12,858 nucleotides of DNA from Desulfobacula sp. (GTDB lineage: Bacteria; Desulfobacterota; Desulfobacteria; Desulfobacterales; Desulfobacteraceae), in contig JAQICW010000251.1 of assembly GCA_027858355.1 (NCBI GenBank), positions 1-12,858 on the forward strand. Reading direction: 5' to 3'. The stretch's first letter is position 1, and every line of letters begins with the position of its first letter. The notes below the pieces were generated by a model. The model was given only the letters and a program-made list of their open reading frames with translations. It searched no databases and was not told the DNA's origin. Both the position numbers and the translations under genes were made by a program. This document shows positions 1,058 to 12,858 of the stretch, in pieces.

Positions 1058-3226
1058 TTAAGGGAATGTCGGTATTCTTTTTTTGGCCAGCAGCTCAACA
1101 AGATGGAGCACTTTGACAGGGCTTTGCCGCTTGTCAAGGCCGCCTTTCAACTGCATGACGCAGCCAGGGCAGTCTGTTACCAGTATGTCTGCTCCTGATG
1201 CCTCAACATTATCCAGCTTTTTTTTAAGAATTTCTGAAGATATTTCAGGAAAATCCACGGAATAGGAACCGCCGAATCCACAGCAGACATCTTCATCCTT
1301 TGAGGGGACATAGGTATATCCGGCCTTTTGAATCAGGGCTCTGGGTTCATCTGTCACATGAAGTCCCCGGCACAAATGGCAGGGGGCATGATAGGTTACT
1401 TGTTTATTAATATTCTGACTGGCCTGGGGAAACTTATATACCTTATCCATAAAGGATGAGAAATCGATAATCTTATCTGTAAATAATTTAAGATCCATGG
1501 CAGGTTCTTTAGCTTCCCCGAAAATCTTTTCATAATTGTGGGTCAGATGGGAGGCACATGAGGCGCACAGGGTCAGAATATAATCATATTGTTCTGCGCT
1601 AAAGGCCTGGATGTTCCGAACAGCTATCGCTTTGGCTGTTTTTTCTTCTGCCGCCATCATGGCAGGCAGGCCGCAGCAGGTCTGATCCAAAGGGAAATCC
1701 ACCTGGATATTGGCCTTTTTCAGCAGTTTTAAGAGGTCCTTTCCATGATCAGGATAAATAAAATCCATGGCACATCCGGCAAAAAGAGCGATTCTAAGTG
1801 AAGGGTTTTCCAGTTTGGGGCTAAGGGTTTGCCAAAGATCCCTTAACGGGGTTTTGGCAATGGTGGGCAGACTCCTGAATCCATGGTCTTTCTCCAGAAA
1901 AGAGGGCAGATGACGTATCAAAGGCCTGCCCTTGGAAAGGGGCTGCTGTGCCAGATAGGCTGATCGCAAAATAAAATGAAACAGCTTTCTATTCTTCATC
2001 ACCTTTGCCAGGAGAAAATTTTTAACCGGGGCTTTGCCTTCTTCTTTGATCACCCTTGCATAGGTCTTTTTGATGAGATGGGGAAGATCTATGCTCACGG
2101 GGCAGACTTCCTTGCAGGCCTGGCAGTTTATACAATTTCTCACGATGGCCCTGTCATTCTCTTTACCATGGAAGAATAAGGTTAAAATCAGGCCAATGGC
2201 GCCAATATAGACATGGCCATATCTGTGCCCGCCCACTTTTGAGTAGATGGGGCAGACATTGGCGCAGGCCCCGCACCGGATACACCGAAGACTTGTGCAA
2301 AACACGGGGTCTTTGGAAAGGGAAAGCCGGCCATTGTCCAGGAAAACAACATGCATCTCTTTTTTCCCGGAAGGAGTATTCAAACTTTGGTTGGCCCCTT
2401 TGATCCAGGTCACATAGGAGGTTATGGCCTGGCCCGTTGCATTCTTGGGCAAAAGTTTTAAAATGCGCAGGGCAGAACCAAGGTCTGAAACAAGTTTATC
2501 AAATCCCACCAGGGCCACATGAACCCTGGGAAGCGTAGTGGTAAGGCGCATATTACCCTCATTGGTGACCATCCCCAGGGTGCCGGAATCTGCAATGGCA
2601 AAATTAGCGCCCGTAATTCCCATGTCTGCTTCAAGGAATCTGGGGCGAAGCTCGCGCCTTGCCACCTTAACCAGCTTGTCAATATTTTGCGCATCAACCT
2701 TTAAATCTGTTTGTTTTTCAAACAGCTCTCCAACCTGGTACCTGGAAAGATGTATGGCCGGCATGACCATGTGGGAGGGGCCTTCATGTTTAAGCTGGAT
2801 GATCCATTCTCCAAGATCGGTCTCAGTGACAATAAATCCTTGTTTTTCAAGATGGTCATTTAAAAAGGTTTCTTCTGCAGTCATGGATTTGGATTTAATG
2901 ATCTTTTTAACCTTGTTTTCTTTAGCGATCCGGGCAATGATCTCATTGGCCTCCTGGGCATCCTTTGCCCTGTGGACTATGGCACCGGCCTTTTCGGCAT
3001 TGAGCTTGAATTCTTCAAACAAGACTTCAAGAAAAGGGATCAGGCTGTCCTTATTTTCTGCAATGATATCCCTGAGACTGTTAAAATCAATATCCTTGTA
3101 AACATTCGGACGGTTTTCACGATAGGCTGTGTTGAACTCATCCAGGGCAGAACGTAAAAATGAATCACCAAGGGCCTGGCGAATCTTTTTTTTATAGGAC
3201 TTCATATCCTGGGCAGTTTTGATCAT
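1058..3226 (-). CDS. ldhH: L-lactate dehydrogenase large subunit (LUD + 4Fe-4S + CCG fusion, LutB/LldF-LutA/LldE type)
   Basis: This 722-aa protein fuses what LutB and LutA do as separate proteins. Residues ~60-300 form a LUD (LutB/LldF) domain with ADMGITGANFAIADSGTLG at 200-218. Residues 310-376 carry two [4Fe-4S] sites, C315-x2-C318-x2-C321-x3-C325-P and C365-x2-C368-x2-C371-x3-C375-P. Residues ~478-712 form two cysteine-rich CCG domains (CCG at 517-519, CASC at 554-557, PCH at 615-617, CCG at 648-650, CPGC at 686-689), as in LutA/LldE and heterodisulfide reductase subunits. The length matches the ~717-aa enzyme of Desulfovibrio (DVU3033 type). Its role is oxidation of L-lactate to pyruvate, passing electrons through Fe-S centres to membrane carriers. 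The ATG overlaps the ldhG stop by 4 bases (ATGA), which implies translational coupling. The domain calls are firm. The substrate follows from the family and the operon. Confidence 0.85.
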   Translation of the reverse strand: MIKTAQDMKSYKKKIRQALGDSFLRSALDEFNTAYRENRPNVYKDIDFNSLRDIIAENKDSLIPFLEVLFEEFKLNAEKAGAIVHRAKDAQEANEIIARIAKENKVKKIIKSKSMTAEETFLNDHLEKQGFIVTETDLGEWIIQLKHEGPSHMVMPAIHLSRYQVGELFEKQTDLKVDAQNIDKLVKVARRELRPRFLEADMGITGANFAIADSGTLGMVTNEGNMRLTTTLPRVHVALVGFDKLVSDLGSALRILKLLPKNATGQAITSYVTWIKGANQSLNTPSGKKEMHVVFLDNGRLSLSKDPVFCTSLRCIRCGACANVCPIYSKVGGHRYGHVYIGAIGLILTLFFHGKENDRAIVRNCINCQACKEVCPVSIDLPHLIKKTYARVIKEEGKAPVKNFLLAKVMKNRKLFHFILRSAYLAQQPLSKGRPLIRHLPSFLEKDHGFRSLPTIAKTPLRDLWQTLSPKLENPSLRIALFAGCAMDFIYPDHGKDLLKLLKKANIQVDFPLDQTCCGLPAMMAAEEKTAKAIAVRNIQAFSAEQYDYILTLCASCASHLTHNYEKIFGEAKEPAMDLKLFTDKIIDFSSFMDKVYKFPQASQNINKQVTYHAPCHLCRGLHVTDEPRALIQKAGYTYVPSKDEDVCCGFGGSYSVDFPEISSEILKKKLDNVEASGADILVTDCPGCVMQLKGGLDKRQSPVKVLHLVELLAKKRIPTFP
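1077..1084 (-). other. A7G homopolymer, candidate slippage or indel site in ldhH
   Basis: On the minus strand ldhH reads GCC AAA AAA AGA here and stops seven codons after AAA AAA. A -1 slip on the A-run gives AAG AAT ACC and continues for ~105 codons to 762. A7G resembles slippery motifs of the dnaX A-AAA-AAG class, although the zero-frame phase differs from the canonical one. A single-base homopolymer sequencing or assembly error would look the same. Confidence 0.35.
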
Positions 3227-3783
3227 GGCTGCATATCCTTTATCAATAGTAGATGAAGCTCAACAGGGCCGTGGACTCCAATGGCCAGCACCCGTTCAAT
3301 ATCAGCCGTCCGGCTGGGGCCCGTAATAAATGCAGTGTAGGAGGCAGAATCCTTTTTCAGGATATCATTGAGCGCAGCTTCAATAGATCCTGTGTTAAGC
3401 TTTATTTTTGATACGGGCAGCATGGCAATATGGATTTGTGCCAGCATGGTGGCGATGCGGATTTCTTCAGAGTCAGAAGACAGCATCAGGGTACCTGTGT
3501 CAGCAATGCCGTAATCAACCCAGGTTAATGAAGTATCCAGGGATGAGGCATGATTTCGTAAGGGTTCTTCCAAGAGATCCATGCCTGAGGATTTACACAG
3601 ATCCCTCAGCCTGTCCTGGTCTTCTGAATCCAGACCTGGGCATGCCAGAGTTTTTAAATTTTTCTCTTTGTTCAGGTCGACAGCGTACTGAAGAGCGTCG
3701 GAAACCGAAGATATTTCATGGACAATGGTTCCAACTGCAACAGCCTTTTCTGTCATGATCTGGATTAAATTATTTTTTTCCAT
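3223..3783 (-). CDS. ldhG: L-lactate dehydrogenase small subunit, LUD-domain protein (LutC type)
   Basis: This 186-aa LUD-domain protein has the family signatures YGIADTGTLM (91-100), TGPSRTAD (154-161) and the C-terminal GVHGPVELH (169-177). LutC-type proteins are obligate partners of the LutA/LutB Fe-S subunits in L-lactate oxidation and have no cofactor motif of their own. I chose the ATG at 3783 because AGGGAA sits at good distance before it. An upstream TTG at 3825 would add 14 residues without family similarity or a binding site. The gene overlaps ldhH by 4 bases. It follows the AEC permease after ~70 bases, a gap holding a strong inverted repeat. It pairs with ldhH like DVU3032 with DVU3033 in Desulfovibrio vulgaris. 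Confidence 0.8.
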   Translation of the reverse strand: MEKNNLIQIMTEKAVAVGTIVHEISSVSDALQYAVDLNKEKNLKTLACPGLDSEDQDRLRDLCKSSGMDLLEEPLRNHASSLDTSLTWVDYGIADTGTLMLSSDSEEIRIATMLAQIHIAMLPVSKIKLNTGSIEAALNDILKKDSASYTAFITGPSRTADIERVLAIGVHGPVELHLLLIKDMQP

Positions 3784-3834
3784 TCTGTGTTCCCTATAAA
3801 AAATAGTTTTATCCCTGGGCCACAAAGCTTAACC

Positions 3835-3862
3835 TGGTATAAGATTATCCATAGTTATACCA
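3835..3862. promoter_or_regulatory. 8-bp perfect inverted repeat at the permease-ldhG junction
   Basis: TGGTATAA (3835-3842) and TTATACCA (3855-3862) are perfect inverse complements with a 12-nt spacer, and the permease stop codon lies inside one arm. The TGGT/ACCA ends match the half-site style of FadR-family GntR operators, so it could bind the neighbouring regulator. As RNA it could be a processing or stability hairpin separating permease and dehydrogenase expression. No T-tract follows on the minus strand, so a strong terminator is unlikely. Confidence 0.45.
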
Positions 3863-4763
3863 TATAAAGTAGAATGGTCAATGTCACAAGGCTTAGCATT
3901 GTAGTGAATAATACGGCTGTGGTAACAAATTTTGGCATGATATTATATTCAATGGCAATAATGGATCCCAGAACTGCCACAGGCATGCCGGCCTGGAGAA
4001 TTCCGGAACGAATTTCCATGCCAGACAGAGAAAAAACAAAGCTCAATCCAAAGGCAATAAGAGGGGCTGCTATAAGCCGCAGACAAGAAGCTATGACTAC
4101 ATCAAGGCTGAAATTGAATTTAGCCAGGCTTGATAATTGAACCCCCAGGGTTACCAGCATCACGGGGATCATAGCCCTGCCTAAAAGTCCTGTGATCCTG
4201 GATAAAAACAGGGGAGGCTCAAAATCAGTGCCGTAGAAAAACATGGCCGGCACCATGGCAATCAGGGCCGGTGTTTTAAATACAGACAACACAGCTGACA
4301 AACCCGTTCCCCGGGTCCAGCTTGAAATCCCCACACAAATCACAAAGGACAGCATCATAATAGTTATGAAATAGATGGTGGCAGACGTCTGGGCAGCCTG
4401 GCCCAGCCTGAAATCAATAAGGGAGAGTCCCAGATTTCCCACATTCCCGAAGGTGGCAATAATAACAAAGGCAGCTGTCACTTCCCTGGAACGTTTCAGG
4501 AGTTTAGCCAGGATAAAAGCAGCCACTGCCACTAATATATGGGTCAATGTAGTATACAGGATCATCTGGCCCGCCACTGCAATATCAATATCTACCTTGC
4601 TGATGATATCAAACGCAAAACAGGGTACCAGAAGAAAATAGGCTGTCCTGGACAATGTTCTGGCATCCAGTCCCAGGCGGGGGCCGGCATAATACCCCAG
4701 AAGGATCAGAAAAAATACGGGTGTGACAATATCGATAAAGATCTTCAGAACCTGAAGATACAT
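3855..4763 (-). CDS. AEC (auxin efflux carrier) family permease, probable organic-acid transporter
   Basis: This 302-aa integral membrane protein has about ten hydrophobic segments (roughly 8-27, 36-54, 64-88, 95-118, 127-149, 160-178, 190-212, 225-247, 251-272, 278-301) in two five-helix halves, as in the AEC/BART superfamily. The motif FGNVGNLGLSLI (~105-116) in helix 4 and the matching helix-9 segment ILQAGMPVAVLGSIIAIEYN (~255-274) are typical of Mem_trans proteins. Bacterial members move malate, malonate and other carboxylates. Lactate, glycolate or a related hydroxyacid is the likely substrate here from context alone. AGGAAAGG precedes the ATG. It lies 41 bases after gntR and ~70 before ldhG, so it probably belongs to the same transcript. 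Desulfovibrio loci usually carry an LctP-type lactate permease at this position, so the AEC type is a substitution. Confidence 0.75.
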   Translation of the reverse strand: MYLQVLKIFIDIVTPVFFLILLGYYAGPRLGLDARTLSRTAYFLLVPCFAFDIISKVDIDIAVAGQMILYTTLTHILVAVAAFILAKLLKRSREVTAAFVIIATFGNVGNLGLSLIDFRLGQAAQTSATIYFITIMMLSFVICVGISSWTRGTGLSAVLSVFKTPALIAMVPAMFFYGTDFEPPLFLSRITGLLGRAMIPVMLVTLGVQLSSLAKFNFSLDVVIASCLRLIAAPLIAFGLSFVFSLSGMEIRSGILQAGMPVAVLGSIIAIEYNIMPKFVTTAVLFTTMLSLVTLTILLYMV

Positions 4764-4804
4764 ATTCGGCCTTTCCTGCTTTTATTTATCTTACAATAAA
4801 ATAG

Positions 4805-5515
4805 CTAAGCTTTTTTTTCAAAAAAATAATGGATTCGAGCTAGAACCTTATCCAGGTGAATGTACATTTTTTCACGGGCAAGCTCAGGGTTTTTATCTTT
4901 GATGGCCTGGTATATGGCCCGATGCTCCTCCAATATATCCCAGCTTTCATTAGTCTCATAACAGATGCCAACTGTACTCTGGATAAGAGCATATATGGAA
5001 TACATTAAATGGGTCTGAATTTTATTGTGGGCTGCACTGGATATTGCAAGGTGAAATGCTGCATCATCATCTATAAGACTCTGTTTTTTCGAGATACCTT
5101 CTTCCATGGATTCAAGGTTTTGCCTCAAAAGTTCGATATCCTCTTTTGTTGCCCTTTCAGCAGCGTAATAGGTATTCCAGGACTCCAGGCACCTTCTTAC
5201 ATCATGTACCTCCAGAACAGTGTCCATGTCCTCTTTTAAAAGCTTGCGAATAGGCTCGATAAAGCCTTTCGGTACAATGGATTTCACCCGGGTCCGTTTT
5301 CTCTGGGAGATTTCCACAAACCCAATGGTATCGAGAATTTTCAATGCTTCCCGCAATGAAGACCGACTCACATTAAAGAGACTCATCAGCTCCCTTTCCG
5401 AAGGAAGCGAATCTCCAGGGTTTAAATTGCCCTTAATAATGTGAGCTTTTATCTGATCAACAATCAAAGTTGAAACTTTAATTTGTTTAATTGGCTGATA
5501 ATCGGGATGATTCAT
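4805..5515 (-). CDS. FadR-subfamily GntR transcriptional regulator, LldR-like
   Basis: This 236-aa protein has an N-terminal winged helix-turn-helix (about 12-78, with LPSERELMSLFNVSRSSLRE at 37-56, the GntR signature). A C-terminal all-helical FCD ligand domain spans ~95-230. The FCD metal-site histidines can be recognised as H155 (AAFHLAI), H198 (EEHRAI) and H220 (YIHLDKV). FCD regulators of this type sense small carboxylates: LldR and PdhR sense lactate and pyruvate, GlcC senses glycolate. It is the first gene of the gntR-permease-ldhG-ldhH group and lies downstream of glcF. It likely represses or activates both groups. A perfect dyad 43 bases upstream of its start is a candidate autoregulatory operator. 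The ATG has only a weak GGTGAA-like binding site. Confidence 0.85.
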   Translation of the reverse strand: MNHPDYQPIKQIKVSTLIVDQIKAHIIKGNLNPGDSLPSERELMSLFNVSRSSLREALKILDTIGFVEISQRKRTRVKSIVPKGFIEPIRKLLKEDMDTVLEVHDVRRCLESWNTYYAAERATKEDIELLRQNLESMEEGISKKQSLIDDDAAFHLAISSAAHNKIQTHLMYSIYALIQSTVGICYETNESWDILEEHRAIYQAIKDKNPELAREKMYIHLDKVLARIHYFFEKKA

Positions 5516-5532
5516 TTATTTCACCATTATTG

Positions 5533-5566
5533 TTTTTTTTGTACCTGATTTACATTAAGGTTTTCT
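5533..5566. repeat. shared upstream element, copy 1 (gntR)
   Basis: This 34-nt stretch aligns with 9780-9813 upstream of glcDE. By eye about 30 of 35 columns are identical with two single-base gaps, including the blocks TACCTGA, TTTAC, TTAAG and TTTTCT in the same order and spacing. Both copies lie just upstream of a minus-strand gene start (about 20-50 bases away) and both adjoin an inverted repeat. The likely meaning is a common regulator-binding or promoter element. Confidence 0.5.
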
Positions 5567-5575
5567 GACAAACCT
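5558..5575. promoter_or_regulatory. candidate GntR operator upstream of gntR
   Basis: The plus-strand sequence AGGTTTTCTGACAAACCT is a perfect 6-bp inverted repeat (AGGTTT/AAACCT) with a 6-nt spacer. Its near edge is 43 bases upstream of the gntR start codon. The size suits the dimeric winged-helix operators of the FadR subfamily. It sits at one end of the element that recurs upstream of glcDE. No T-run follows in either direction, so it is not a terminator. Confidence 0.5.
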
Positions 5576-5594
5576 ATACTGCCATGAAGCTTTA

Positions 5595-5621
5595 TGTATA
5601 GGAATATCCATCTTTTGTCCA
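5595..5621 (-). promoter_or_regulatory. weak candidate promoter for gntR
   Basis: On the minus strand TGGACA (5621-5616) and TATACA (5600-5595) resemble -35 and -10 boxes, but the spacer is only 15 nt. A start site near 5587 would put the dyad at 5558-5575 just downstream, a road-block position. It is offered as the best candidate in this gap, not as a firm call. Confidence 0.25.
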
Positions 5622-5639
5622 TTAAAAGAATTTAATCTT

Positions 5640-5778
5640 TCAGACATCATTCTCAGCCATGTTTTTCAGGATCTGATACCGCTCCTGGGCCTCTTTTTCT
5701 ATCTTTGACCTCACTCATCCCGTATGCCACATGGGTTGCTGCTGTATTTCCATCAATTGTCTGCATGTTTTTTTTCAT
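5640..5778 (-). pseudogene. nifJ: relic of pyruvate:ferredoxin oxidoreductase: N-terminus joined to C-terminal tail
   Basis: A good ribosome site (AGGTGA) precedes the ATG at 5778. The frame encodes MKKNMQTIDGNTAATHVAYG followed by MSEV, which is the start of homodimeric PFOR/NifJ (family pattern TxDGNxAxxHVAYxxSEV, normally continuing into the YPITPSS region). After SEV the similarity stops. The frame runs through an unrelated stretch to a TGA at 5655-5653. In another frame the next codons give KIEKEAQERYQILKNMAEN and a stop at 5642-5640, which resembles the ERY..L..LA tail that ends PFOR proteins. So a gene of ~1,200 codons appears to have lost nearly all of its interior in one deletion, leaving both ends out of frame. 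It starts 41 bases after the glcF stop, consistent with an old glcDE-glcF-por operon. The N-terminal match is strong and the tail match moderate. An assembly collapse is a possible alternative. Confidence 0.7.
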
Positions 5779-5818
5779 TCATTTCACCTTATTTAACAAT
5801 ATTTTTTATATGATTTTT

Positions 5819-7078
5819 TTATTCTTTGGGTTTAGCGCCTGTAACAATCTCAGAGATGTGACAGACCTTTGTTTTTAAACCAGCTCTACGGACACCGTGG
5901 GACAATTGAATCATGCAGGCCGGGCAGGAAGTTACCAGAAAATCTGCTTCAGTGGACTCCACATTTTTCATTTTTCGATCCAGCACCTTCATGGAAAGAT
6001 CATAGTGTGTCAATGCGTATGAACCAGCACCGCCGCAGCACCAGTCAGCTTCGGGCATTTCCCTGAATTCAACTCCTTGAATATTCTTTAAAATTTCCCG
6101 GTTTTCCTTGGATATTCCCTGTCCACGAACGGCATGGCAGGGATCATGATAAGTCACCACAATGGGTGATTTGCTTGGTGGAGTTGAATATCCATTTTTA
6201 AAAATAAATTCCACCATGTCCTGGACAAGGGGAGTCTGGGCCTGGACAAGGTCCTGATTTTTTTCGTCGCCTTGAAATACTTTGGGGTATTTCTTTAAAA
6301 ATGAGGCACAGCTTGAGCAGTCTGTGACAATTACGTCAAAGGATTGGGATGAAAAGGCTTCAAGATTTTTCAATGCCAGTTTTTGAGCTGCATCAATATC
6401 CCCATAGGTCCATGCCGGCAGACCGCAGCAGCAATTGTCAAGAACAGTAACTGTTTTGCCAATTTTTTTCAGTATTTTTAAGCTCTCGTGCCCGGCTGCC
6501 TGCTGGATAACATCAACCCCGCAGCCTATAAAATAACCAATTCGAAGAGTTTCTCCCGTGCCTGGGTATTCACCTGGCTTGACAAGCCCTCTAAAGGGGA
6601 CGGGGGGAAGTTTTTCAACAATATTTTCAGCCTTGGCAAAATCTCTGCCCAGAATCCTGAGGAGACCCAGGGCTTTGACAACCTTTGACATACCTGAATT
6701 TTTTCCTAAGGCTGCTGCCCGTGCTGCCATGTGCAGTCTCTTGGGATAGGGAAGCAGCTGTTCAAACAACAGCTTGTGGATGGGTTTCCTTCCTACTTTT
6801 TCCAGATACTGGGCTCTGCCCTTAATGACCAGGTCGGCTGTGGGAACGTCAGCCAGGCAGCTGGCAGTACAGGCTCCACACCCCAGGCAGTTAAACAAAG
6901 GATCTTCCAGTTCTTTGGTCCATTGAACACGATCTTCAATAATGCCACGCATTAATGCCAGTCGTCCCCTGGCAACACCGGACTCATGGCCCGTTGAACG
7001 AAATACTGGGCAGGCCTCCTGGCAGAAACCGCATTTATTACATTGGGAAATTGCATCGTAATCTTCAAAAATATTCAT
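5819..7078 (-). CDS. glcF: glycolate/D-lactate dehydrogenase Fe-S subunit GlcF
   Basis: The length of 419 aa is typical for GlcF. Two [4Fe-4S] motifs lie near the N-terminus: C13-x2-C16-x2-C19-x3-C23-P and C64-x2-C67-x2-C70-x3-C74 (the last lacks the usual following proline). Two CCG domains follow (CCCGLPAW in the first half; YHDPCHAVRG, CCGGAGSY and CPAC in the second). It takes electrons from the FAD subunit at the membrane and passes them to quinone or other carriers. GGAGAGG precedes the ATG, and the gene lies 26 bases after glcDE, so the two are co-transcribed. Glycolate and D-lactate versions of this subunit cannot be separated by sequence alone. Confidence 0.85.
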   Translation of the reverse strand: MNIFEDYDAISQCNKCGFCQEACPVFRSTGHESGVARGRLALMRGIIEDRVQWTKELEDPLFNCLGCGACTASCLADVPTADLVIKGRAQYLEKVGRKPIHKLLFEQLLPYPKRLHMAARAAALGKNSGMSKVVKALGLLRILGRDFAKAENIVEKLPPVPFRGLVKPGEYPGTGETLRIGYFIGCGVDVIQQAAGHESLKILKKIGKTVTVLDNCCCGLPAWTYGDIDAAQKLALKNLEAFSSQSFDVIVTDCSSCASFLKKYPKVFQGDEKNQDLVQAQTPLVQDMVEFIFKNGYSTPPSKSPIVVTYHDPCHAVRGQGISKENREILKNIQGVEFREMPEADWCCGGAGSYALTHYDLSMKVLDRKMKNVESTEADFLVTSCPACMIQLSHGVRRAGLKTKVCHISEIVTGAKPKE

Positions 7079-7104
7079 AGCCCATACCTCTCCTTGATCT
7101 GGCT

Positions 7105-9756
7105 TTAAACCTCATATTCGTTTTTTCCGGGCATACGTCCGGGCGCAAACAATGAATTGGGATCCAGGGCTTTTTTGATCTTGTGCATCATGGCCCATTC
7201 CGGCCGTGGAAATCCTCCAAAAACATCCTGTTCACGGCAAAAGGATTCCGGGGCTTTTTCAAGGTGCACATGCCCGTCAAAGGACATGGCCCTATTGGTC
7301 AATGAAGCCCATTGATCTTTATCCAATGAATCCAGAGCAATGAATATCCTGCCACATCCAAAATCAAGGAGCCGGTCTGACATTATTGTCTGGGTCTTGA
7401 TCCCATCGATAGAATTGATAACATTGATAAGATCCAACATCTTTCCAGTGGCTGTCGAAAGCTTCAAGGTATAAGGAGCCATTGCAATTTTATTAAAAAT
7501 ATCTTTAAAACACCCGTCAATCAAGGGATAATCCCAGGTTTCCAATTTCTTTAATTTGTGTTTACCAAATAGCAGGGAGCATTGTTCCACCTGGTGTTCA
7601 ACAACATTGGCCATGCCTTCAAAACCCACCACCATTTTCCACTGTTTTGGGAATTGATCTGGACCATTATCTTCTTGGATATTATTTTCTGGAACAGCTG
7701 TTACAAAGGCAGGGAACAGATTGGCATTCATAAGCTCCAGCACAGCTCCAAAACAATCATCCAGGTTTCCTGTCATGGATAAAGCCTTGCAGAGTTCAGG
7801 CCTTGTTAAGAGTCTCCAGGTGGCTTCGGTTATTATTCCAAGGCTTCCATTGCTTCCTGCCAAAAGACGGGTCATGTCATATCCGGCAACATTTTTAACC
7901 ACCTTGCCTCCAGTGGAAATTATTCTACCCTGGCTGTCAATATATTGAAGCCCCAGTAAAAAATCCCTGGGAGCCCCATAAAACATACGTTCAGGGCCGC
8001 TTATTCCCATGGCCACCAAGGAACCCGTGCTGGCCTTGCTGCCAAAAAAAGGCGGCCGCAAAGGCAGCCACTGATTATTTTTACCCAGAATCTCCTGAAG
8101 TTCATGCAGGGACATTCCCGCCCCCAGAGTGATATAAAGGTTATCAGAGTCATACTCTATGATATCTGTCATGGCCAACGTACTCACAGCCGTAACATCC
8201 TCTTTGCAGAGATTTCCATAATGACTAAAGGTATCGGCCCCAACAGCGATCACAGGCTTGCCATCATCTTTGGCCTTCCTAATGGCAGCCATGGCTTCAG
8301 GAACCCCTTTACAGGATGCCCCGCCCAGCCGTGTCAATACTGTGGGCTCAAAAACCTCCAAAGGCTTTCCAGGGGATTTGGAAAGGGGGATCACCTTATT
8401 GGGGTTGAATACGTTTCCCGGATCAAAGGCAAGTTTTACGGTTTGCTGGGTATTTAGATCGTCACCGGAAAAGATCATTCTCATGGCTTCTTGTTTTTCC
8501 TGGCCAATACCATGCTCCCCGGATATGGTTCCACCCAGCGCAACACAGGCTTTCATTATATCCCATCCAGCCTTGTGCACCTTTTCCAGTTCTCCTTCAT
8601 TTCGTGAATCAAACAATAAAAGAGGGTGCATATTACCATCACCCGCATGGAAGACATTACCAACCCGGCATTCATGTTTTTGGGCAATGGCCTTGATCTG
8701 CTCCAGGGCTTTGGGCAGATTGGTCCTGGGTACAGTGGCATCGTTTACAAGGTAATTGGGTGCCAGGCGGGCAATAGCGCCAAAGGCTCCTTTTCTGCCC
8801 TGCCATAACAGGTTTCTTTCCTCCTGGGTTTTAGCGATCTTGATGTTCCTGCATTGGGTAGTCATACAGATTTCTTTAATCTGCTCAGCCTGCTCCTCAA
8901 GCCCAACTATCATGCCTTCAACTTCAATAAGCAATACAGCGGCAGCATCCAGAGGGTACCCGCAGGGAATGCTGGCTTCAACAGCTTCAATTACTAAAGC
9001 ATCCATCATTTCAAGGGTATTTGGGAGAATTCCGGCTGATATGATTTTTGAAACAGAAAGGGCAGCTGCCTGGATATCATCATAAACAGCTAACATGGTT
9101 ATAGCGGATTGGGTTTTGGGCAAAGTACGCAGAGTCAGCTCCGTAGTAATGGCCATGGCTCCTTCGCTGCCTACCATTAGACCACGCAGATCAAACCCGG
9201 GAGGATCCAGGGCTGGTCCACCTATTCTCAGAATTTCGCCATCAGCCATCACTATTTCCATCCCCAGGATATGGTTGGAGGTGACACCATATTTCAGACA
9301 AAGAGGGCCCCCTGAATTTTCTCCTGCATTTCCGCCAAGAGTGGCCACTTTCTGGCTGGCCGGGTCTGGAGCGTAAAAGGCACCAACCTTTGCCAGGGCC
9401 TGTTGTACTTCCAGATTAGTCACCCCGGGTTGAACAACGGCATATCGACTTTCAGGATGAATACCCAGGATCTTATTGAATCTAGACAGGCAGATCACAA
9501 GGCCGTGGGTGACAGAGATGGTGCCGCCGGATAAATTGGTACCAAACCCCCGGGGAACAATATCAATTCCTTCTTTATTGGCAGCCTTTACTAATTGGGA
9601 AACCTCCCTGGTATTTGCCGGAAACACGACAACCCCGGGATTCCCTTTTACCAAAGAGGCATCATAGGAGTATAGTTCAATGCCGGTATTGGTCACGGAC
9701 ACATTGGATTTGCCTACTATTGTTTCCAATTCACGAATAAACTTTTCATTAACCAT
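7105..9756 (-). CDS. glcD: fused GlcD-GlcE FAD-dependent glycolate/D-lactate dehydrogenase
   Basis: This 883-aa protein carries two FAD modules. Residues 1-~460 are a complete GlcD: a PCMH-type FAD domain (PRGFGTNLSGG at 68-78, GGNAGENSGGPLCLKYG at 141-157) and the FAD-oxidase C-terminal domain (HAGDGNMHPL at 370-379, GEHGIGQEK at 413-421, ending FDPGNVFNPNKV). After a short linker, residues ~470-883 match GlcE: a second PCMH-type domain (GSLVAMGISGPERMFYG at 578-594, KVVKNVAGYDMTRL at 618-631) and the closing ALDPNSLFAPGRM (863-875). In E. coli these are separate subunits. The reaction is oxidation of glycolate to glyoxylate or D-lactate to pyruvate. I chose the ATG at 9756 because GGGGAGAAG precedes it and GlcD similarity begins there. 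The ORF stays open to 9873 but would then overlap the methyltransferase. glcF follows after 26 bases. Confidence 0.85.
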   Translation of the reverse strand: MVNEKFIRELETIVGKSNVSVTNTGIELYSYDASLVKGNPGVVVFPANTREVSQLVKAANKEGIDIVPRGFGTNLSGGTISVTHGLVICLSRFNKILGIHPESRYAVVQPGVTNLEVQQALAKVGAFYAPDPASQKVATLGGNAGENSGGPLCLKYGVTSNHILGMEIVMADGEILRIGGPALDPPGFDLRGLMVGSEGAMAITTELTLRTLPKTQSAITMLAVYDDIQAAALSVSKIISAGILPNTLEMMDALVIEAVEASIPCGYPLDAAAVLLIEVEGMIVGLEEQAEQIKEICMTTQCRNIKIAKTQEERNLLWQGRKGAFGAIARLAPNYLVNDATVPRTNLPKALEQIKAIAQKHECRVGNVFHAGDGNMHPLLLFDSRNEGELEKVHKAGWDIMKACVALGGTISGEHGIGQEKQEAMRMIFSGDDLNTQQTVKLAFDPGNVFNPNKVIPLSKSPGKPLEVFEPTVLTRLGGASCKGVPEAMAAIRKAKDDGKPVIAVGADTFSHYGNLCKEDVTAVSTLAMTDIIEYDSDNLYITLGAGMSLHELQEILGKNNQWLPLRPPFFGSKASTGSLVAMGISGPERMFYGAPRDFLLGLQYIDSQGRIISTGGKVVKNVAGYDMTRLLAGSNGSLGIITEATWRLLTRPELCKALSMTGNLDDCFGAVLELMNANLFPAFVTAVPENNIQEDNGPDQFPKQWKMVVGFEGMANVVEHQVEQCSLLFGKHKLKKLETWDYPLIDGCFKDIFNKIAMAPYTLKLSTATGKMLDLINVINSIDGIKTQTIMSDRLLDFGCGRIFIALDSLDKDQWASLTNRAMSFDGHVHLEKAPESFCREQDVFGGFPRPEWAMMHKIKKALDPNSLFAPGRMPGKNEYEV

Positions 9757-9779
9757 GGCTTCTCCCCTGCAGGCAGAAC

Positions 9780-9813
9780 TTTTTATTTTACCTGAATTTA
9801 CTTTAAGTTTTCT
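9780..9813. repeat. shared upstream element, copy 2 (glcDE)
   Basis: This is the partner of 5533-5566. It lies between the methyltransferase stop and the glcDE start and slightly overlaps the last codons of the methyltransferase. The blocks TACCTGA, TTTAC, TTAAG and TTTTCT are in the same order as upstream of gntR. An adjoining dyad, TTAAGT at 9803-9808 and ACTTAA at 9817-9822, occupies the same relative place as the gntR dyad. Confidence 0.5.
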
Positions 9814-9822
9814 TCCACTTAA
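9803..9822. promoter_or_regulatory. candidate operator upstream of glcDE
   Basis: TTAAGT and ACTTAA form a perfect 6-bp inverted repeat with an 8-nt spacer, about 47 bases upstream of the glcDE start. It coincides in position with the gntR-proximal dyad within the shared element. It overlaps the stop codon and last codons of the methyltransferase, so part of its sequence is also constrained by coding. Confidence 0.35.
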
Positions 9823-10513
9823 CGGCCAGAAATGCACCTTTGTCAGAATTATTCTTTTTTCCTTGACGTTCAATTTCAGGAATATTAGAAAGGCAATCTT
9901 CCTTTTGAAAATGAATAGCTGTTTTTACAACAGGATTTGCTGGAACAAGGGAGCGCATTTCATCTGGAGACCTGAAAAATATTTTTTGAAATAAATCATG
10001 CCCGTTTTCTGCTGCCTTGCGCCTTTGCTCTGCCCATGGGCTGAGACTGTTCAGGGTGGTTAATACAATAGTCCCTCCCTGTCGGGTCACGCGGTCAAGC
10101 TCGGCAACAGCCTTGTTTGCATCCTCTATAAATTCAATGGCTGTCATGGACAGAACTTTATCAAAACTATTATCTGCAAAGGGCAACACGCACATATCTG
10201 CGCAAATACCCGTAAAATCAGTTGTAACTATTTCAGCAGTTTTGACAGGGCTGCCAATCTTCCCTATTTTATGAATGGCCTTCCTGAGCATGGGTTCAGA
10301 TATATCAATGCCTGTAATCCTGGATCCCTGAGCTATCACATCAATGGTGAAAACCCCGGTGCCACAGCCCACATCAAGAATTTTTTCCCCGGAAAGGGGA
10401 TTGAGAAGTTTAAGCAGCAGCTCGGATTCATACTGCTTAACAAGAATACCGCATTGCGTTTCAAACCAGCAATCATACTTGGTAGTCCATTTATCGAAAA
10501 GAGTGGTTGTCAT
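9803..10513 (-). CDS. class I SAM-dependent methyltransferase (UbiE/BioC-like)
   Basis: This 236-aa Rossmann-fold methyltransferase has motif I ILDVGCGTG at 45-53 binding SAM and motif II as ITGIDISEPML. The post-II segment LPFADNSFDKVLSMTAIEFIED is typical of Methyltransf_11/UbiE-type enzymes. The substrate cannot be told from sequence; small-molecule, quinone or arsenic-type substrates occur in related families. I prefer the ATG at 10513, with GGGAAAAAAG upstream. A GTG at 10525 would add four residues. It sits between the thiamine-binding gene and glcDE, about 46 bases before the latter, and is probably co-transcribed but functionally peripheral. Confidence 0.75.
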   Translation of the reverse strand: MTTTLFDKWTTKYDCWFETQCGILVKQYESELLLKLLNPLSGEKILDVGCGTGVFTIDVIAQGSRITGIDISEPMLRKAIHKIGKIGSPVKTAEIVTTDFTGICADMCVLPFADNSFDKVLSMTAIEFIEDANKAVAELDRVTRQGGTIVLTTLNSLSPWAEQRRKAAENGHDLFQKIFFRSPDEMRSLVPANPVVKTAIHFQKEDCLSNIPEIERQGKKNNSDKGAFLAVKWKKT

Positions 10514-11069: not shown

Positions 11070-11960
11070 TTATTTTGCATCGGCAGCACGAATCTCTTCC
11101 ATGGTTCTTAAAATCTGCATGGCATTTTCATAAACGGGGGTATCCACCATCTTGCCAAGATAGGTAACTGCGGCTGAGCCCTTTGCAATGCCTTCTTCTT
11201 CAAATACTTTTTTTACGCCTTCTGCCCATTCAATACTGGCTGCAGAGGGGGTATAAATCTCATGGGAGGGTTCGATCTGACTTGGATGAATCAGCATTCT
11301 GCCTTCATATCCCATCTGATGACCTTCTTCCGTGCTCTTTTTATACCCTTCGGTATCCTGATACGCCACATACGGGCAATCAATGGCAACGCATCCGGCA
11401 GCTCTGGCGGCAACAGCAGTGTGAAAACGTGCATAAAGCTGTTCTTTGCCTTCAGATGTCAAGGTAACCCTCATGTCTTTGGTGAAATCCACGGCACCAA
11501 ATATCAGGGAATTGACCCTGGGGCTTGCAGACCCAGCTTCATAGGCATTTATAACACCTTTGGCCGTTTCAATGAGCAGCTGGATGGCAACGGAACCGAC
11601 TTTCATACCCCTTCTCTGTTCCAATTCTTCAAGTTTCCAGTCCAGACGTTTTACATTCTCTCCGCTTCCGCACTTTGCCAGACATACGCCATCAAGGCCT
11701 GGATAGACAATAGCTTCAAGGTCGTCATTGGTCATCTCGGTTTCCCAGTTATTAACCCGGACATAAAGATATTTTGATTTCTGTGACGCTCTGCTTGAAT
11801 CAAGATATTTTTTGATCTCTTCACGACCCTTGGCTTTTTCCGCCGGGGGTACTGAATCTTCAAGGTCCAGTGTTAATATGTCTGCTTCAATGCTGACGGC
11901 CTTGCCAACCATTTTTTCGTTATTGCTTGGTACGTAAAATACAGATCTCATAACTGCCAT
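11070..11960 (-). CDS. CitE-family CoA-ester lyase (HpcH/HpaI superfamily), malyl-CoA or citramalyl-CoA lyase-like
   Basis: This 296-aa TIM-barrel lyase carries the family residues in order: LDLEDSVPP (31-39), VRVN with Arg68, LLIETAKG with metal-ligand Glu131, IFGAVDFTKDM with metal-ligand Asp158, and MLIHPSQI (222-229). Such enzymes cleave or form (3S)-malyl-CoA, beta-methylmalyl-CoA, citramalyl-CoA or citryl-ACP using Mg2+. No citrate lyase alpha or gamma subunits lie nearby, so a role in citrate lyase is unlikely. Its neighbour is a CoA-ligase alpha subunit, a pairing seen in malate-CoA ligase/malyl-CoA lyase pathways. AGGAG lies 9 bases before the ATG. Malyl-CoA (glyoxylate + acetyl-CoA) and citramalyl-CoA (pyruvate + acetyl-CoA) both fit the locus. 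Confidence 0.75.
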   Translation of the reverse strand: MAVMRSVFYVPSNNEKMVGKAVSIEADILTLDLEDSVPPAEKAKGREEIKKYLDSSRASQKSKYLYVRVNNWETEMTNDDLEAIVYPGLDGVCLAKCGSGENVKRLDWKLEELEQRRGMKVGSVAIQLLIETAKGVINAYEAGSASPRVNSLIFGAVDFTKDMRVTLTSEGKEQLYARFHTAVAARAAGCVAIDCPYVAYQDTEGYKKSTEEGHQMGYEGRMLIHPSQIEPSHEIYTPSAASIEWAEGVKKVFEEEGIAKGSAAVTYLGKMVDTPVYENAMQILRTMEEIRAADAK

Positions 11961-11988: not shown

Positions 11989-12048
11989 TTATTTAATTAT
12001 GCTTTTTTAATTATAACCTGATTTAATTATAACCCAATTTAATTATAA
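11989..12048. repeat. 16-bp AT-rich tandem repeat, three full units plus a partial one
   Basis: Read on the minus strand, the unit TTATAATTAAAT plus four variable bases (TGGG, CAGG; the third reads TTATAATTAAAAAAGC) repeats at 12048-12033, 12032-12017 and 12016-12001. A partial fourth unit follows from 12000. Each full unit contains TATAAT and the palindrome AATTATAATT or a close variant. The first unit supplies the last Leu codon and stop of the ligase gene. Confidence 0.75.
12010..12037 (-). promoter_or_regulatory. candidate promoter inside the tandem repeat, ahead of the lyase gene
   Basis: Minus-strand TTGGGT (12037-12032) and TATAAT (12015-12010) are separated by 16 nt, about 50 bases before the lyase ATG. 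The -10 box is a perfect consensus match but the -35 is weak. Because TATAAT recurs in every unit, the AT-rich repeat alone could create this resemblance. Confidence 0.3.
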
Positions 12049-12858
12049 TTGGATCAGTTCTTTAATTTTCGGGGCAATTTTTTCAGGGCTGTCCACGATA
12101 TGGGCTCCGGCCTTTGTCAATGCGTCCATCTTGCCCTTGGCAGTCCCTCTTCCTTTTTCAACAATACTGCTGGCATGGGAAAACCTCATACCTTCGGGTG
12201 CCCAGGCGCCTGCAATAAAAACAACAAGCGGTTTTGTAAACTCGCCCTTGGCAACACACTCGGCTGCTTCCTCTTCAAGGGTTCCACCGATTTCACCAAA
12301 AATCGCCACGGCCTTTGTCTGATCATCAATCTCAAACATTTTCAGTACATCAGCCATGGTCATCCCCAATACGGGTTCAGTTCCAATGTGAAGAGCCGTG
12401 CTGATTCCAAGGCCTGCTACCTTGAGAGCCCAGGGCACGGTACCGGACTGTCCGCCGCTGCGGGAAATAACTCCCACAGGACCCGGATCAAACAATGCTC
12501 GAGCCCATTCCAAACTTCCGCCCAGCCAGCCAATGGCGGCTCTGCCCGGACTGATCAGCCCGAGGCTGCCAGGTCCCAAAAGTTTTACATCATTTTTCAA
12601 GGCATAATGGACCATTTCAATAACATCCTGAATCGGAATACGCTCCACCGGGGAAACCACAAATTTAATGCCGGCATCAATGGCTTCATAAACTGCACTT
12701 TTCAAAGCAGGCCCAGGAATGAATGTAACAGCGGCATCAATCATTCCCACCTGTTTGATGGCTTGTTTTATCGTATCAAACACGGGAATCCCATGGACCT
12801 TTGCGCCTCCGCGACCCGGTGTCACACCCGCCACCACCTTTGTACCATACTCTTTCAT
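12043..12858 (-). CDS. divergent ADP-forming CoA ligase alpha subunit (SucD/MtkB-like), N-terminus beyond window
   Basis: The frame reaches the right edge, and the ATG there aligns with an internal YGTK-VGGVTPG site of SucD, so roughly 25-30 N-terminal residues of the CoA-binding domain are missing. The 271 visible residues keep the alpha-subunit plan: GVTPGRGGAKVHGIPVFDT, VGVISRSGGQSG, FGEIGGTLEEEAAE and the phosphohistidine loop FSHASSI with His228 (GHAGAI in E. coli SucD). The segment GPGSLGLISPG replaces the usual GPNCPG-ITPG. These departures suggest a substrate other than succinate, possibly malate, citramalate or itaconate. The beta subunit, if present, should lie just outside to the right. 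The lyase gene follows after ~82 bases of tandem repeat. Confidence 0.7.
   Translation of the reverse strand: MKEYGTKVVAGVTPGRGGAKVHGIPVFDTIKQAIKQVGMIDAAVTFIPGPALKSAVYEAIDAGIKFVVSPVERIPIQDVIEMVHYALKNDVKLLGPGSLGLISPGRAAIGWLGGSLEWARALFDPGPVGVISRSGGQSGTVPWALKVAGLGISTALHIGTEPVLGMTMADVLKMFEIDDQTKAVAIFGEIGGTLEEEAAECVAKGEFTKPLVVFIAGAWAPEGMRFSHASSIVEKGRGTAKGKMDALTKAGAHIVDSPEKIAPKIKELIQL

Follow-up and report, generated by a model that had tools for sequence, protein, structure and literature searches.

Gene content of the locus

The window, that is, the whole stretch of 12,858 nucleotides that we analyzed, is probably from a sulfate-reducing bacterium. Its minus strand encodes, in order, a SucD-like protein (cut by the window end), a CitE-like lyase, a thiamine-binding protein, a methyltransferase, a GlcD-GlcE fusion, and a GlcF-like protein, followed by the scar that is the subject of this work (5640–5778); past the scar, the order continues with a GntR/FCD regulator, a transporter, a LUD protein, and LdhH (Table 1). 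The scar lies beside glc and lactate dehydrogenase genes, as a preliminary description of this DNA had stated. No Rfam family is matched anywhere in the window at gathering scores.

Table 1. Features of the window, with the evidence for each assignment.
Feature	Positions	Strand	Evidence
LdhH, quinone-type L-lactate dehydrogenase large subunit	1058–3226	-	NF045670, 1041 bits (cut-off 800)
LUD-domain (LutC/LdhG-like) protein	3223–3825	-	PF02589
Membrane transporter, auxin-efflux-carrier type	3855–4763	-	PF03547
GntR/FCD regulator, with its own GGTGA at 5521–5525	4805–5515	-	Pfam PF00392, PF07729
C-terminal PFOR2 remnant with stop codon, in another frame than the leader	5640–5713	-	inside 184/198-base L002 match
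Accidental 41-codon ORF created by the join	5653–5778	-	translation
N-terminal PFOR2 remnant (MKKNMQTIDGNTAATHVAYGMSEV, 23–24 codons)	5707–5778	-	L002 alignment, PDB PFOR match
Deletion join	5708–5713	-	blastn pieces overlap by 6 bases; 5 (GAGGT) common to both L002 flanks
Ribosome-site-like AAGGTGA of the lost gene	5784–5790	-	read from sequence; identical bases in L002
GlcF-like iron-sulfur subunit	5819–7078	-	Pfam CCG, Fer4_8; GlcF model 146 bits, below cut-off 333
GlcD-GlcE fusion, one ORF; true start probably an internal codon	7105–9873	-	glcD 594 (cut-off 568); glcE 243, below 284
HpcH/HpaI family lyase, CitE-like	11070–11960	-	PF03328; citE 192 bits (cut-off 443); malyl-CoA lyase 75 bits (cut-off 500)
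SucD-like CoA ligase alpha subunit, cut by window end	12043–12858	-	PF02629, PF13607; sucCoAalpha 246 bits (cut-off 353)

Reading from 5778 to 5640 on the minus strand, the first 23–24 codons of a PFOR gene are joined out of frame to the last 22–23 codons and the stop codon. The remnant starts with an ATG at 5778 that is preceded by GGTGA at positions -10 to -6, and the frame that opens with MKKNMQTIDGNTAATHVAYGMSEV continues for 41 codons before ending at TGA. In a search of all PDB chains, the first 24 residues match three sequences of solved PFORs (e-values 2.6e-4 to 8.4e-4); the C-terminal tail peptide, a query that mixes two frames, has no match in PDB at e-values up to 10, and one sequence, that of the relative L002 (vide infra), provides its identity.

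The intact gene in a relative

By scanning genome contigs with GlcF, we located three related loci: L001 (Candidatus Desulfobacula maris), L002, and L003 (Desulfobacula sp.), in the genomes G001, G002, and G003, respectively. At the same site in L002, between glcF and gntR, an intact PFOR of 1172 residues is encoded (PFOR2); it scores 1928 bits with TIGR02176 (cut-off 911) and matches the PFORs in PDB over its entire length. The N-terminal part of the remnant together with 40 upstream bases is identical to L002 at 109 of 112 bases, and the C-terminal part together with the gap to gntR at 184 of 198; in blastn, the window breaks at 5708/5713 and lands on L002 positions 10770 and 14145. The remnant is 139 bp and the intact gene is 3519 bp, so 3380 bp are missing; the C-terminal part is out of frame because this number leaves a remainder of 2 modulo 3. 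A full-length member of TIGR02176 has ~1170 residues and scores over the cut-off; what is left in the window, out of frame, is no such member. In our set of 31 PFOR sequences, VAYGMSE is found in both of the PFOR2 rows and in none of the 29 others. The preliminary description, made from the DNA letters and their translations, had read a minus-strand ATG with a ribosome site and a PFOR N-terminus, a jump out of frame into the PFOR C-terminal tail, and the loss of ~3.4 kb with both ends kept; comparison with the syntenic locus, which it had proposed, bears out all three.

The scar has the marks of a deletion: both of its ends are collinear with the intact orthologue in L002, and a short direct repeat, GAGGT (5 bp), is common to both L002 flanks at the join. 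Among the 38025 possible junction pairs within these end zones, 317 (0.8%) have at least 5 bp in common. An assembly artefact or chimeric contig, that is, a strain with an intact PFOR2 that was skipped by the assembly, is very improbable. Such a collapse had been offered in the preliminary description, and it could draw on the intact PFOR2 alleles of relatives and on the window, which seems to be one whole contig of 12858 bases (P0121); however, the repeat at the join has only 5 bp, and repeats of that length are too short for merging contigs at the usual k-mer sizes. Also, the stretches to the left and right of the join both match L002 (93.5% identity over 5708–9844 and 95.5% over 4798–5713), and the gene is absent from this place in two other assemblies (L001 and L003), one of them with a nested scar.

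Our protein searches, which concern protein sequences alone, covered the best 120 of 7998 matches and the best 120 of 995 matches; among the former are three further intact copies of PFOR2 (P0001–P0003) that are 93–95% identical to that of L002.

L002 itself has four interior deletions of ~640–770 bp relative to the window (at L002:6623, 15171, 15519, and 15618); these affect the methyltransferase, the transporter, LUD/LdhH, and LdhH, genes that are kept in the window and L001. PFOR2, by contrast, is retained in L002, while the window and L001 have lost it. We considered a general assembly fault of L002 as the source of these deletions and rejected it: the contigs L085 and L084 align collinearly across 8.6 kb, and the gaps between the aligned pieces measure about 65–90 bases, none of them 640–770 (one contig pair only); the deletions in L002 therefore look local.

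A second PFOR elsewhere in the genomes of relatives

A full-length paralogue, PFOR1, is encoded on another contig in all three of G001, G002, and G003 and is 74% identical to PFOR2; G035 (probably Desulfospira joergensenii) also has another full-length PFOR elsewhere. In the neighborhood of G001, 55 of 58 genomes contain a PFOR match at e-values up to 1e-50, some as fragments only, and three have no match at that threshold. The genome from which the window derives presumably also encodes PFOR1; a PFOR elsewhere was one of the options raised in the preliminary description.

History of the loss

In G035, the genes glcF, maeB, PFOR2, and gntR are consecutive. In a PFOR tree with 31 rows (including L004–L007, and leaving out fragments and places lacking a locus, e.g., PFOR1 of G035), the PFOR2 of L002 groups with that of G035 in a single clade (support 100/100), apart from the clade with the PFOR1s of G001, G002, and G003. 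We infer that PFOR2 descended vertically; the alternative, gain by transfer into both L002 and G035, is spoken against by the shared place before gntR. With vertical inheritance, the common ancestor would already have had PFOR2, and at least two losses would have followed, one in the lineage of L003 and the other or others in the lineage or lineages of the window and L001. In L001, only the first ~21 PFOR codons are left, joined at the stop codon; its loss is larger than that of the window, and the two are nested; the corresponding gap in L003 contains no recognizable PFOR piece and no leader.

Within this explanation, and compatible with it, is the question of whether the window and L001 lost PFOR2 by two separate deletions, which we regard as possible and on balance somewhat doubtful; alternatively, they may share one deletion, to which L001 later added another of 71 bp. 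The joins of the window and L001 differ, and the informative sites that group the window with L002 (98) outnumber those that group the window with L001 (72) or L001 with L002 (71), which speaks for separate events; over seven shared gene segments (~7.6–7.7 kb), the identities are 94.5% for window and L002, 93.5% for window and L001, and 93.7% for L001 and L002. However, these sites do not settle the three-way branching, and the L001 remnant is nested inside that of the window. Starting from a window-like state, L001 takes just a 71-bp deletion between 4-bp repeats, whereas from an L002-like gene it would take a 3451-bp deletion with 1 bp of repeat.

The place in L003 where PFOR2 would be (L003:11370–11545) is occupied by a dispersed repeat of ~165 bp whose inverted ends resemble TGAMCGAAAAC. 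At e-values up to 1e-3, this repeat has at least 27 matches in G003 (itself counted), at least 18 in G001, at least 36 in G002, at least 41 in G022, at least 32 in G035, and 0 in G010 (40 candidates were scored in four of the genomes). Its RNA fold is not clearly better than those of shuffled sequences (z -1.5), four sources carrying it give no Rfam match at gathering scores, and a search of the window for it found no copy.

The retained leader

The preliminary description had suggested that the leftover leader might act as an upstream ORF before gntR. That the leader is a functional small ORF or leader peptide acting on gntR is, in our judgment, extremely unlikely. The start, the ribosome site, and the first ~20 codons are kept in both the window and L001, and both have a 41-codon ORF, by chance; the likeness of the first codons is expected because of recent shared descent. 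A regulatory peptide should be conserved beyond such descent; instead, the last 17–18 residues are unrelated between the window and L001, residue 3 differs too, L003 has no visible leader, the gene preceding gntR in G035 is a whole PFOR2, and gntR has a GGTGA of its own (Table 1). A scan of 5400–5900 identified no promoter or terminator, a weak result since shuffled sequences average only 1.7 and 0.3. In our view, the deletion created the 41-codon ORF by accident.

Probable decay of a redundant paralogue

The scar is very probably the pseudogene of a redundant, operon-borne PFOR2 that was lost by short-homology deletion, with a leftover that makes no useful product and with PFOR1 handling pyruvate. 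An ancestor would have carried PFOR2 as a second PFOR, after glcF and before gntR. An illegitimate deletion at short repeats would then have taken out ~3.4 kb and fused what stayed, namely the ribosome site and start with the initial ~24 codons, out of frame to the final ~22 codons with their stop. No useful product would be expected from the resulting 41-codon ORF, and pyruvate would be handled by the housekeeping PFOR1 encoded elsewhere in the genome. The nested loss in L001, the lack of any PFOR piece in L003, and the interior deletions in other genes of L002 support this explanation. As counterpoints, retention of the leader in two lineages might suggest a function, and the short-repeat mechanism is less secure for L001, whose join would show a repeat of just 1 bp on derivation from an L002-like gene. 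Ku-type end joining was considered as a source of the deletions and rejected, as no Ku was found in four of four genomes (these MAGs may be incomplete); the control search was positive in one of 14 genomes, Bacillus subtilis.

Ordinary loss of a redundant paralogue very probably explains the scar; the changed route for pyruvate that the preliminary description had raised is not needed. A limited, title-level search of the literature on Desulfobacula found no title on this PFOR loss. Because the intact parent gene is available for comparison, the locus is a clean case of how deletion removes a redundant paralogue from an operon, here in a relative of sulfate reducers, and it is a warning that a PFOR missing from an operon need not mean a metabolic change.

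Metabolic context of the lost enzyme

The preliminary description placed the lost enzyme after lactate dehydrogenase. This reading is incomplete, as glycolate/glyoxylate is indicated by the genes on the opposite side; the gene neighborhood suggests that the role of PFOR2 in glycolate oxidation may have been no smaller than that in lactate oxidation. Matching Pfam families for a ligase, a lyase, glycolate oxidase, malic enzyme, and PFOR are present together in G035. For the ligase, the succinate-CoA ligase models outscore those of malate-CoA ligase, and for the lyase, CitE outscores malyl-CoA lyase; all of these scores are below the NCBIfam cut-offs. The malic-enzyme-like gene of G035 (maeB; L080:8810–10147; PF00390 and PF03949) lies between glcF and PFOR2; it scores below the cut-off of an NCBIfam model of a longer protein, and it has only remote matches in G001–G003 (27–31% identity over part of the length). 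A CitE-like protein at e-values up to 1e-80 occurs in one of the 58 genomes near G035, that is, G035 itself, in a set that leaves out G001–G003, which carry the CitE-like gene. In another genome, G005, the gene after glcF (L081:8838–9950) resembles the aspartate-glyoxylate aminotransferase BhcA (218 bits; cut-off 650), which hints at glyoxylate.

A more specific proposal, unlikely as it stands and offered tentatively, is that the locus is a cluster for a glycolate-oxidizing malyl-CoA cycle (CoA ligase, lyase, GlcDE, GlcF, malic enzyme, and a dedicated PFOR2), the last two enzymes of which Desulfobacula-like relatives have lost by repeated deletion, with a housekeeping PFOR taking over. We infer a step-by-step cycle whose acetyl-CoA would be regenerated from pyruvate by PFOR. 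The finding points to glycolate, besides lactate, as a substrate for the neighboring genes.

Comparison with known systems

The ends of the remnant belong to the PFOR/NifJ family (TIGR02176; solved relatives 1b0p, 7plm, and 6cin); unlike the members of that family, the window retains ~46 of 1172 codons, in two frames, with no domain left.

In the luo operon of Desulfovibrio vulgaris (DVU3025–3033), as that operon is described in PMC4481167 and PMC6456213, por is likewise found with genes for GlcD-type and LUD-type lactate dehydrogenases and a permease, in agreement with the statement in the preliminary description that por lies beside lactate dehydrogenase genes in this species. The two arrangements differ: the D. 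vulgaris operon has por as its first gene and includes pta/ack, whereas here PFOR2, now lost, was flanked by glcF and gntR, its upstream neighborhood includes SucCD-like and CitE-like genes, and it is by gene order that it groups with lactate dehydrogenase genes.

The malyl-CoA pathway of anaerobic glycolate/glyoxylate use is described for Syntrophobotulus glycolicus and Desulfofustis glycolicus (in the accounts of PMC6313629 and PMC8092247). Taken with glycolate oxidase, the ligase-like and lyase-like genes here and the malic-enzyme-like gene of G035 resemble this route at the family level. With respect to the pathway as given there, the enzyme identities at our locus are assigned by family only, and the window has neither maeB nor PFOR2 at the locus; in G035, SucC-like, SucD-like, CitE-like, GlcDE, GlcF-like, malic-enzyme-like, and PFOR2 genes are found in a row.
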